From an uncultured Eubacterium sp. (GTDB lineage: Bacteria > Bacillota > Clostridia > Lachnospirales > Lachnospiraceae): a DNA stretch of 32,734 bases. The notes beneath the pieces were generated by a model that saw only the letters and a list, made by a program, of their open reading frames with translations, was not told the origin of the DNA and made no database searches. Every line of letters starts with the position of its first letter. Positions within the stretch are counted from its first letter, which is position 1. Shown one piece after another: positions 26,390 to 32,734 of this stretch. Location of the stretch: NCBI GenBank assembly GCA_947385775.1, contig CANDMI010000044.1:1-32734 (forward strand), read 5' to 3'. The translations under genes and the position numbers were made by a program.

Positions 26390-27017
26390 TTATTCTTTAT
26401 CGTATGCAATGACGCAGCTTTTTTGATACCAGGAGCGGATTCTTTTTTTATAAATGTCCAAAATTTCGCGGTTTGGGATCTTAAGCCGATAAACCCCATT
26501 TTCATACCGATTTTCCGCTGTCAGGTATGCGGTCGCAAACAAAACGCTCCATAAATATTCTTGTTTGACTTCCAGGTCTTTACTGTCGAAATCTGTATAA
26601 GTTAATTCTAGAATTAATTCTTTTTTCGATGCACTCTCCTGAGATCAGGGCTTCTATTTGATTCTTCGTAGTGTCTGTCGCGTTTTCAAGAATGTCCTGG
26701 ATAATGGCGTTGCTGCTGCTGTTTGCCCAGTGAGGTTCCATTGGCGCGTTTTCTGATTCCAGAAATTTATCACATTGGTTTAAAATATCCCATGGACAAT
26801 AGATATCTGTCTGTCCAAAACGGTATCCATCATACCATTCTTTCATCTGGGTCAATTTGTTTTCCAGTCCGTAATAACAAAGCATTTGCTTTACTTCATC
26901 ATTTGTAAAATCTAACAATTGCTGGATAAATCCTGTTTTGTCCACATAATAGTAATCCCTATCCTGGATATCTTTGAAAAACTCAATTCCGATTGGCAGC
27001 TTCTTTTTTTGCCCCAT
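26390..27017 (-). pseudogene. Decayed AAA-ATPase-like (DUF1703 family) gene
   Basis: The start MGQKKKLPIGIEFFKDIQDR with VDKTGFI matches the N-terminus of AAA-ATPase_like proteins and has GAGAGGGG upstream. The next family block, with the P-loop (usually FTRPRRFGKT), is missing: QQLLDFTNDEVKQMLCYYGL joins the N-terminus directly to the post-ATPase region. Then YDGYRFGQTDIYCPWDILN and the NSSSNAIIQDI part follow normally. A run of six T at 26621-26626 (A6 on the coding strand) shifts the frame; the correct frame then reads ELTYTDFDSKDLE, EYLWSVLFATAYLTAENRYE and LKIPNREILDIYKKRIRSWY, stopping at 26390-26392. The nuclease-like C-terminus is lost. It therefore carries three lesions: an internal deletion, a one-base shift and a C-terminal truncation. 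Confidence 0.85.
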
Positions 27018-27093
27018 GCTGTTTACCCCTCTCTTTGGCATACCACTCCCCTGCCCTTTTTATCTTAACACAGTTTGCGGCGGCATTGCAAGA

Positions 27094-31165: not shown

Positions 31166-32200
31166 CTACTCCCGCAGGGATATATCCCCCTCCTTTGTGG
31201 AAACGTTTAAATCCGCTCCACTGGAAGAATTGCCTTTCACATATTTCCATCCATAATATTTGTAACGGCTTTTCTTTCCATTTAACGAATCCGGCACAGA
31301 AAGCTTCCCAAATTCTGTCTTTAACGTGAGCTCGAATCTGTCAAGCTGCTCTTTTTTGGCTGTAAACACAACATCGCCATATGTGCTTACAGCGTTTAAT
31401 TTCTTGGAAATATATAAATCAGACAGCTTGATATTTCCGTCTTTTGTTGTTATGTTCGCGGAATTTGAAAGTTTCGCGTTTTTCAAATAGATGTCTCCAT
31501 AAGTTGTTTTTATTTTCAGCCTGCCGACTGCATTTAGGTCGGATACACGAATATCCCCTTCTTTTGAAAGCAGCTGCAAGCCACGATCGCTTTTTGCGCC
31601 GGATATTTGGATATCACCAAATTCTGTCTCTATGTTTGTGTCTTTGCAGTAGAAATCCTGTAAAGATAAATCCGCGTCTTTTGCATACAGTGTAATTTCT
31701 TCGAAAAGTTTTTTTGGCACAAAAACGGTTATTTTTGTCTTATTTACGCAAATTGTGTTTTTTCCTTTTTTATAAGTATATAAAGCGTGCTGGTATGGTT
31801 CGGCGTTTAGCTGTAAAGCGTTTTCTTTTACCTGGTAAGTAAGTGGATTTTTGCTGTTATAGCAGTAAATGTAATAGGAAAGATAAAAATGATTATCCTT
31901 GGAAGCTTTAAGTTTCAGGTCTGCATCTCCCAGCCTAGCGGTTATGCTTTGAACGCCGTTTAATTGTTTCTTTTCCAGTTGATATGTATATGCTTTTTTC
32001 TCTTTCGCGGATACGGTCTGAACAAGCTTAGGTGATTGGGAAAATCCGATCGCGCCGTCCGCGGCATTAGAAATTGCGGTATTCGAGTTTGTCCTGTTGG
32101 ATATTATCCCGTTTGATATCTTCGTATGATAAAAACCGGATAAACAAAGTATGCCCGCTGAAAAAATAATCGCTGCTGTGATTTTTTTGTATCGTTTCAT
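31166..32200 (-). CDS. Exported DUF4097-type beta-strand repeat protein
   Basis: This 344-residue protein begins with a signal or membrane anchor (KRYKKITAAIIFSAGILCLSG). A lipobox is not convincing. The rest is a long run of short beta-rungs of the DUF4097/DUF4098 type: DLSLQDFYCKDTNIETEFGD, SDRGLQLLSKEGDIRVSDLN, KIKTTYGDIYLKNAKLS, ITTKDGNIKLSDLYI and VSTYGDVVFTAKKE. These end in DLNVSTKEGDISLRE. The recurring TxxGDI pattern marks a beta-helix-like stack. Such proteins usually sit at the cell envelope of Firmicutes and have no proven function. AGGAGGAG precedes the start. It has its own consensus promoter and no partner gene such as a PadR regulator or DUF1700 protein in the window. Confidence 0.85.
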   Translation of the reverse strand: MKRYKKITAAIIFSAGILCLSGFYHTKISNGIISNRTNSNTAISNAADGAIGFSQSPKLVQTVSAKEKKAYTYQLEKKQLNGVQSITARLGDADLKLKASKDNHFYLSYYIYCYNSKNPLTYQVKENALQLNAEPYQHALYTYKKGKNTICVNKTKITVFVPKKLFEEITLYAKDADLSLQDFYCKDTNIETEFGDIQISGAKSDRGLQLLSKEGDIRVSDLNAVGRLKIKTTYGDIYLKNAKLSNSANITTKDGNIKLSDLYISKKLNAVSTYGDVVFTAKKEQLDRFELTLKTEFGKLSVPDSLNGKKSRYKYYGWKYVKGNSSSGADLNVSTKEGDISLRE

Positions 32201-32273: not shown

Positions 32274-32334
32274 TCATTTTTATTACTATAATTTAAAGTC
32301 CTGGGCATCACTGGTTACTTTTCTTGGGGTGGGG

Positions 32335-32378
32335 ATTTGCCGTATAAATGATAAATAATAGAGCGTTATCCGGCAAAT
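32335..32378. other. Inverted repeat ATTTGCCG / CGGCAAAT
   Basis: ATTTGCCG (32335-32342) and CGGCAAAT (32371-32378) form an 8-bp inverted repeat around a 28-base AT-rich centre. A T6 run begins 10 bases beyond it. It sits just outside the larger palindromic element and may be part of the same unit or a separate terminator-like hairpin. Confidence 0.4.
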
Positions 32379-32403
32379 TAATGGGATTTTTTGCCTACCG
32401 GAC

Positions 32404-32637
32404 GCTGGAAACAGGCAACAGGCCCGTCCGGATGTTCCGGCTCCGGGATGTAAGAAGTTCTAGGCATTCTGCGCAAGGATTTTAATGCTGGACGGAACGG
32501 GAATTGACCGCCATCCATGGCGCAATCCCCTTTTTCGGGCGTCCCTGCCCGAAAATCCTATACGGAAAACAGAATGCCAAGAGCTTCTAACGTCCCTGCG
32601 CAGTCACATCCGGACGGGCCTGTTGCCTGTTTCCAGC
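32404..32637. repeat. 234-bp palindromic element with perfect 32-bp inverted ends
   Basis: The first 32 bases (32404-32435) are the exact reverse complement of the last 32 (32606-32637). Inside, 32453-32471 pairs with 32570-32588, with two mismatches in 19. The core holds CGCCAT/ATGGCG with a two-base loop at 32509-32522 and TTTTCGGGC/GCCCGAAAA with a six-base loop at 32532-32555. There is no open reading frame of note and no clear target duplication. The form is that of a non-autonomous palindromic mobile element (MITE-like) or a long structured RNA. The surrounding 32274-32734 stretch has no gene. Confidence 0.85.
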
Positions 32638-32734
32638 TGTTTTACAAAAGCTTCCCGTTATTTTTCACAACCAGCCCCATTTTCAATCTATATGGCAATT
32701 GCACACTCCTGGAATTTTATACTGGCAAAAGGCG

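Follow-up and report, generated by a model that had tools for sequence, protein, structure and literature searches.

The TwoAYGGAY RNA family (RF01731) was found in human gut samples, gammaproteobacteria and Clostridiales and is regarded, in the available excerpts of the original description, as a probable RNA that is probably not cis-regulatory (Weinberg et al., 2010; PMC2864571). Binding of CsrA to this RNA has been proposed (available part of PMC4333381). In the accessible portions of the open-licence literature, CsrA binding was the sole published proposal found, and these texts contained neither an established function of TwoAYGGAY nor a mention of its presence in transposons, of divergent pairs or of co-occurrence with CsrA. 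The proposal is said to be that of Gardner and Eldai. As for mobile elements, IS66 insertion sequences usually have ends reading GTAA and a tnpA-tnpB-tnpC gene set, and REP/BIME-type palindromes are characterized by a RAYT transposase and a GTAG-type foot. MITEs of Coxiella burnetii, which are reported to have had a role in small RNA evolution, provide a precedent for bacterial MITEs yielding small RNAs (available part of PMC5896051). The CsrA site obtained by SELEX is RUACARGGAUGU, and the bridging range between two sites is given as 10-63 nt, with an optimum over 18 nt (excerpts of PMC7652899).

The stretch of DNA analysed here (the window; 32,734 nt, the whole of contig C44) contains at its right end a palindromic module with these RNA features. 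To judge from its sequence, this end of the window is the left part of a non-autonomous IS66-type transposon of about 0.6-0.9 kb; the full reading, in which its TwoAYGGAY RNAs would be decoys of CsrA, has a probability of roughly 0.55. The following features were assigned:

31166-32200, minus strand: neighbouring DUF4097 gene, outside the element (context).
32314-32334, plus strand: terminal inverted repeat at the left end, GTTACTTTTCTTGGGGTGGGG, which differs from GTTACTTTTCATGGGGTGGGG by one mismatch (genome repeat search; duplications at sister copies).
32314-32403, plus strand: outer arm, alike at both ends of sister copies and ending in ...CCGGAC (30 flank rows compared, several of them truncated before the repeat).
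32404-32637, no strand assigned: 234-bp palindromic module, subtype A outer stem, with exact 32-bp arms (sequence, fold).
32438-32603, minus strand: full-length TwoAYGGAY RNA (RF01731), 100.6 bits (Rfam match, covariation).
32541-32546, minus strand: first core hairpin, loop reading AGGGAC in the RNA, closed by stem 32536-32540 / 32547-32551 (sequence, fold).
32513-32518, minus strand: second core hairpin, loop reading AUGGAU in the RNA, closed by stem 32509-32512 / 32519-32522 (sequence, fold).
32638-32734, no strand assigned: beginning of the internal spacer, up to the end of the window (contig C44, 1-32734).

The palindrome reported in the initial annotation was confirmed: its exact reverse-complementary arms of 32 bp, read from the sequence, occupy 32404-32435 and 32606-32637 with a gap of 170 bases, and they can even be extended to 68 nt at 87% complementarity. 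The predicted RNA fold of 32390-32660 contains the two core hairpins that had been noted and reaches -149.1 kcal/mol, compared with -83.7 (sd 5.2) in 200 shuffles; since none of the shuffles was as low (z = -12.7), a chance origin of the palindrome is excluded. On the minus strand, 32438-32603 matches RF01731 over the full length of the model (positions 1-168 of 168) with 100.6 bits at a cut-off of 43, which bears out the earlier guess of a structured RNA and supplies the family name that the initial annotation had been unable to give. The features in common with TwoAYGGAY are the covariance match over the whole model, the pair of core hairpins with GGA in their loops and the long outer stem, whereas the present setting differs from the family as known in that the RNA is transposon cargo, has 44 matches in one genome and occurs in divergent pairs. 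The AYGGAY definition is followed by the second loop of the window copy (AUGGAU) but not strictly by the first (AGGGAC), which has a G at the Y position; ANGGA is present in both. The GGA triplets of the two hairpin loops are separated by 25 nt, a spacing within the bridging range of 10-63 nt (excerpts of PMC7652899).

The identity of the RNA and the mobility of the element around it are well supported by sequence comparison, both the RNA and the transposon being nearly certain. The actual unit exceeds 32404-32637 and extends from the inverted repeat at 32314 to position 32734, where it is cut by a contig break that falls inside the element. The initial annotation had considered a MITE, and the palindrome does belong to one, but the 234 bp represent a single RNA module and the ends of the mobile unit lie outside of it; the additional suggestion of a bacterial interspersed palindrome was superfluous. 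Judging from the sister copies on contigs C13 and C89, the element would continue past the end of C44 with a second, oppositely oriented RNA (subtype B) and with its right repeat. The element begins 113 bp upstream of the DUF4097 start codon, and its RNA is directed towards this gene. Searches of phage and plasmid collections with 32314-32734 gave no match. Elsewhere in the window, a truncated AAA-ATPase_like gene was observed at 26580-27041 on the minus strand (PF09820, the first 29 of 201 profile positions), and similar-looking genes start, by eye, beside two sister elements (L004 and L009).

The genome to which the window belongs (G000, here the own genome; 3.98 Mb) is assembled in 152 contigs, many of which are broken at these repeats. 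A DNA search of it returned 81 match rows, some of which represent the reverse-strand reading of the same palindromes, and the RF01731 model returned 44 matches, 41 of them above the cut-off; the palindrome is thus not the single-copy sequence that the initial annotation had linked to a chance or decayed duplication. In 20 own-genome loci, the window's included, 27 RF01731 matches are found. Two RNA subtypes, A and B, are oppositely oriented across a spacer, inside a unit with inverted ends GTTACTTTTCAYGGGGTGGGG. This terminal repeat is present at 39 places of the own genome at up to three mismatches, compared with none for a reversed control. Both RNAs together with both ends were seen only in the C13 and C89 copies, where the two RNAs point outwards; in the RNA pairs on C34, C43, C86 and C104, at least one end is missing owing to a contig break or decay. 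The lengths of both-ended copies are 590 bp (C46), 614 bp (C82), 806 bp (C13) and 929 bp (C89), and a further both-ended copy of 214 bp on C52 is a deletion form without RNA. A weak second class of RF01731 matches in this genome (L058-L060, L121, L126-L130) has kept the stems and shows short loops without GGA; the seven copies read, of about 15 weak full-length matches, score 39.6-58 bits.

Evidence for transposition comes from the flanks of the sister copies, for which the initial annotation had proposed a check for direct repeats. Among 55 TIR-like sites, some of which are not true ends, seven flank pairs constitute exact 8-bp duplications, compared with about 0.02 expected by our own estimate (1540 pairs / 65,536); at length 7 no pair matches and at length 6 two do. 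One of the seven duplications, TACAGATC, stands at each side of the C46 copy, which has both ends on one contig. Five copies in total have their two ends on the same contig, and in the other four (C13, C52, C82 and C89) the flanks are unlike. For the C82 copy, each flank matches a flank elsewhere (C82:18772 and C6), which suggests recombination between copies, and the pattern is the one expected if two of them had recombined and inverted the DNA in between. Here, the left flank of the C82:13452 element (L124, C82:13452-18792) equals the flank of the C82:18772 element in the same orientation and the right flank equals that of C6:386, the C6 repeat of this comparison being located at G000:C6:366-386.

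In other genomes, the exact repeat was found in at least 112 stretches. Among the 80 matches listed, nearly all hosts are named as Lachnospiraceae or as genera thereof, some of these genera being presumed members of the family. A set of 91 related loci was taken, consisting of 17 loci and of 74 of the 80 listed (L159, L166, L172, L193, L209 and L222 were left out). Exact 8-bp duplications were identified in nine of 17 loci with inward-facing ends, defined with one mismatch allowed in GTTACTWTTCAYGG (L134, L148, L149, L153, L155, L157, L163, L173 and L210). In a single case, L235, exact repeats at both ends (304-2611) enclose a gene for a 581-aa IS66-family transposase, which matches PF03050 with 64.4 bits and the NCBIfam IS66 model with a score of 137.1, under its cut-off of 180. 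The same locus holds a 100-aa ORF without Pfam match, and its flanks differ (TTTAAAAA / CTTACAGC), with no exact duplication. A PF03050 domain search of the own genome's 152 contigs, many broken at these repeats, gave none, and the L235 protein found there only a fragment match inside a 152-aa open frame; in L322, the G005 relative, a search for such terminal repeats gave none.

Because of the 8-bp duplications and because the same repeats enclose an IS66-family transposase elsewhere, the element can be classed from its sequence as a MITE, a non-autonomous transposon of IS66 type, whose RNAs form a divergent pair. These two features are shared with IS66 insertion sequences and MITEs, whereas the repeats differ from the usual IS66 ends in starting with GTTAC instead of GTAA, and L235 contains one transposase ORF and the 100-aa ORF in place of tnpA-tnpB-tnpC. 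A 602-bp element of isolate B67_67_LP_H (L163) has nearly the same ends, the duplication ATTGTATG and two large inverted hairpins. The RNA model detects these hairpins weakly (28.5 bits), and inspection by eye showed no GGA loops in their cores. In the relative G006, whose copies extend further out, a search for the repeat end with duplications gave none. Smaller elements were also seen. A 58-bp mini-element (L087:2478-2535) reads GTTACTTTTCACGG...TATGAAAGAGTAAC and has AACAGTTC on both sides, and G008 contains a 143/144-bp relative (e.g., L149, L153 and L157, all three with exact 8-bp duplications), mostly with ends GTTACTATTCACGGCCTGGGG; such ends occur 80 times in one genome.

The RNA itself is older and more widespread than this transposon. 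In a sample of 200 Lachnospiraceae genomes from 199 genera, in which at most 13 candidates per genome were scored, TwoAYGGAY was present in 31 genomes (31 of the 199 genera), of which 27 showed at least two matches and 11 at least 13 candidates; a sample of 61 relatives, with the own genome counted, has it in 10. Outer stems vary between genera, and often between copies, yet remain palindromic. In an alignment of 21 hand-chosen sequences, 33 of 46 pairs show two-sided changes and 96.5% of cells are paired, a level reached by none of 500 shuffles and none of six slid versions. The covariation of the stems, which the initial annotation had wished to see examined, is strong, and the fold is maintained through compensatory changes. 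Unlike the Coxiella burnetii MITEs, the present case concerns a conserved RNA family with its own covariation that exists outside this transposon too.

Neighbouring RNAs at most 500 bp apart were surveyed among the matches listed for the own genome, the relatives and the family sample (13 candidates per genome at most), resulting in 16 divergent, two tandem and no convergent pairs. The divergent pairs are not independent because they stem from seven genomes only, with six copies of the own genome's transposon among them; counted per genome, seven genomes have a divergent pair and two have a tandem pair. Within 160 bases of the divergent pairs of G113, G071, G216 and G020, inspection by eye detected no IS66-type repeat. 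Since the pairs of these four other genera show no such repeat within that distance, it seems to be the pair that recurs as a unit, with the transposon as one vehicle for it. Several peculiarities were observed in individual genomes. In G010 (L067, L076 and L084), both core loops are replaced by long loops of about 20-30 nt that differ between copies. By eye, a GCGTCCG-like motif directly follows the closing stem, which is preceded by CAGC(C/T)G, at RNA 3' ends in G000, G001, G006, G008, G009, G010 and some of G034, and short 3'-end pieces are, by eye, repeated in tandem in G008.

The loops were read in 107 of 139 matches (34/44 in G000, 14/20 in G016, 12/18 in G034, 4/9 in G001, 14/16 in G006, 5/7 in G020, 3/4 in G010 and all in G008, G009 and G035). 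Single-sequence folds of these cores place GGA in at least two loops in 65 copies, in one loop in 28 and in none in 14, the last including 7/7 read copies of the own genome's second class, 3/3 in G010 and one in G009. Of the 144 loop GGA cells in the main families of the own genome, one was changed, as opposed to 84 of the 1296 other core cells (p = 0.002); the 24 copies of this comparison were also met by plain DNA search, copies found with the Rfam model being biased towards intact loops. Across five families, the pairwise diversity of the GGAs amounts to 0-0.024 vs. 0.03-0.30 in other position classes, with a third, non-loop GGA included in the figure for the own genome's two families; the whole hexaloop was not clearly less variable than other positions in these five families. 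The loops have the form C-ANGGAN-G, which appears compatible with the SELEX-derived RUACARGGAUGU, as is GUACAAGGAUGU, which occurs in the loops of two relatives (L356 and G020C13).

Several other explanations for these repeats have to be considered. A chance or decayed duplication, in favour of which there is nothing beyond the caution of the initial annotation, has a negligible probability: a lone palindrome was ruled out by the z value of -12.7, the many genome copies and the 44 RNA-model matches, to which the covariation is added. Only marginally more credible are REP/BIME-type palindromes moved by a RAYT (HUH) transposase. Palindromes in inverted pairs and in many copies would indeed be reminiscent of BIMEs, but the 8-bp duplications and the long terminal repeats, which an IS66 transposon has as well, indicate a DDE transposase and largely refute this idea for the own genome. 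It is likewise improbable, if less extremely so, that the hairpins act as DNA and have no RNA function, as cruciforms or single-strand hairpins that transposition or replication requires and whose arms stay similar through template switching from one arm to the other. This possibility was addressed by counting mismatched cells in 101 copies (three too-short rows and, in addition, one row of G009 and two of G035 were left out). On the RNA strand, G-U and A-C cells number 67 and 50 in the outer stem, 48 and 32 in the inner stem and 41 and 11 in the core, while the opposite-strand fold, read with its own letters, gives 59 and 57, 39 and 44, and 30 and 33, respectively. In the outer stem, G-U is barely commoner than A-C, as expected without RNA selection there, and this near symmetry fits a role as DNA, as do the outer stems of G034, which differ widely between copies yet remain palindromic. 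The core, however, leans to RNA on the named strand by its G-U excess, which is weaker in the control fold, and a DNA role would leave the near-invariant GGA loops unexplained, as well as the RNAs found where no such transposon end was seen. Promoter searches gave no convincing signal, a point against the decoy reading: upstream of the RNAs, sigma-70 promoters were not significantly enriched relative to four controls (97 copies), sigma-54 and sigma-H sites showed no excess and the sigma-28 score was slightly raised (8.69 vs. 8.14-8.38) in copies that are not independent. The C13 spacer contains four promoter-like sites, on both strands, compared with 1.1 expected, which alone proves nothing, and the scanned stretch of this spacer had no terminator-like site.

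Of more weight is the explanation that accepts the same element and the same RNA and assigns to the latter a function other than CsrA binding, so that the link to CsrA and flagella would reflect shared lineages or a motile life style; it has a considerable probability, albeit clearly below even odds. In the 200-genome sample, CsrA was identified in 30 of the 31 TwoAYGGAY genomes and in 70 of the 169 others (Fisher p = 2.7e-9, kinship ignored), and flagellin in all 31 and in 69 of the 169 (p = 5.9e-11, kinship ignored). Because the two genome sets differ in only four of 200 genomes, with a slightly better fit for flagellin, and kinship is ignored, CsrA is inseparable here from motility or shared ancestry, which favours this explanation, as does the finding that 42 of the 107 folded copies present at most one GGA loop. 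Against it, the GGA triplets are the least variable position class in five families, significantly so in those of the own genome, and the loop form would fit the SELEX site. Among the relatives, CsrA is present in 8/10 TwoAYGGAY genomes vs. 36/51 others. CsrA searches in G006 (16 RNA copies) and G008 (18 copies), both of which have flagellin, found none; as the flagellin contig of G008 starts, by eye, inside the flagellin cluster, csrA may be missing from the assembly, and its absence from G008 is likely an assembly gap. Among CsrA genomes, extra CsrA copies were not significantly associated with the RNA (6/11 multi-copy genomes; p = 0.09). In the own genome's flagellar cluster, the gene order is fliW-csrA-fliD-fliS-hag (csrA by search, the others read by eye from translations). 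CsrA-like proteins were further noted beside flagellin genes in G076:C54, G076:C27, G071:C137, G164:C16 and G010:C9, and a TwoAYGGAY match lies 1-4 kb off the CsrA-like or flagellin genes in G076:C54 and G010:C9.

Action as a CsrA decoy is the best-supported mechanism for the transposon-borne RNAs, though unproven, and the binding of CsrA by TwoAYGGAY is deduced from sequence. In this model, an IS66-family transposase would act on the repeats GTTACTTTTCAYGGGGTGGGG and mobilize the element in trans. Each RNA would be transcribed outwards from the spacer and its transcript would fold into a long-stemmed rod presenting two GGA hairpins 25 nt apart. With both hairpins bridged by one CsrA dimer, the RNA would serve as a decoy and free flagellin mRNA and similar targets from repression by CsrA, while the spread of the element would multiply the decoy genes. 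Such an RNA would resemble the CsrB/RsmZ-type RNAs of gammaproteobacteria in its hairpin-loop GGAs, in having more than one site per RNA and in their bridgeable spacing (excerpts of PMC7652899). It differs from them in that each RNA has two sites and an outer stem of great length, that its gene is present in many copies, that the hosts have FliW in addition to CsrA and that CsrA binding is predicted from sequence.

The wider proposal, namely that a family of transposons in gut Lachnospiraceae has CsrA-decoy RNAs as its cargo, in divergent pairs, increases their number and thereby taps a motility regulator, is a tentative one. If true, a selfish element would exploit the motility regulator of its host, and CsrB-like RNAs would exist in bacteria that also control CsrA via FliW. 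For TwoAYGGAY, new handles are gained in its travel with a transposon, its recurring divergent pairs and its co-occurrence with flagella and CsrA in the 200 genomes, and the family would exemplify the spread of regulatory decoys by a mobile element.
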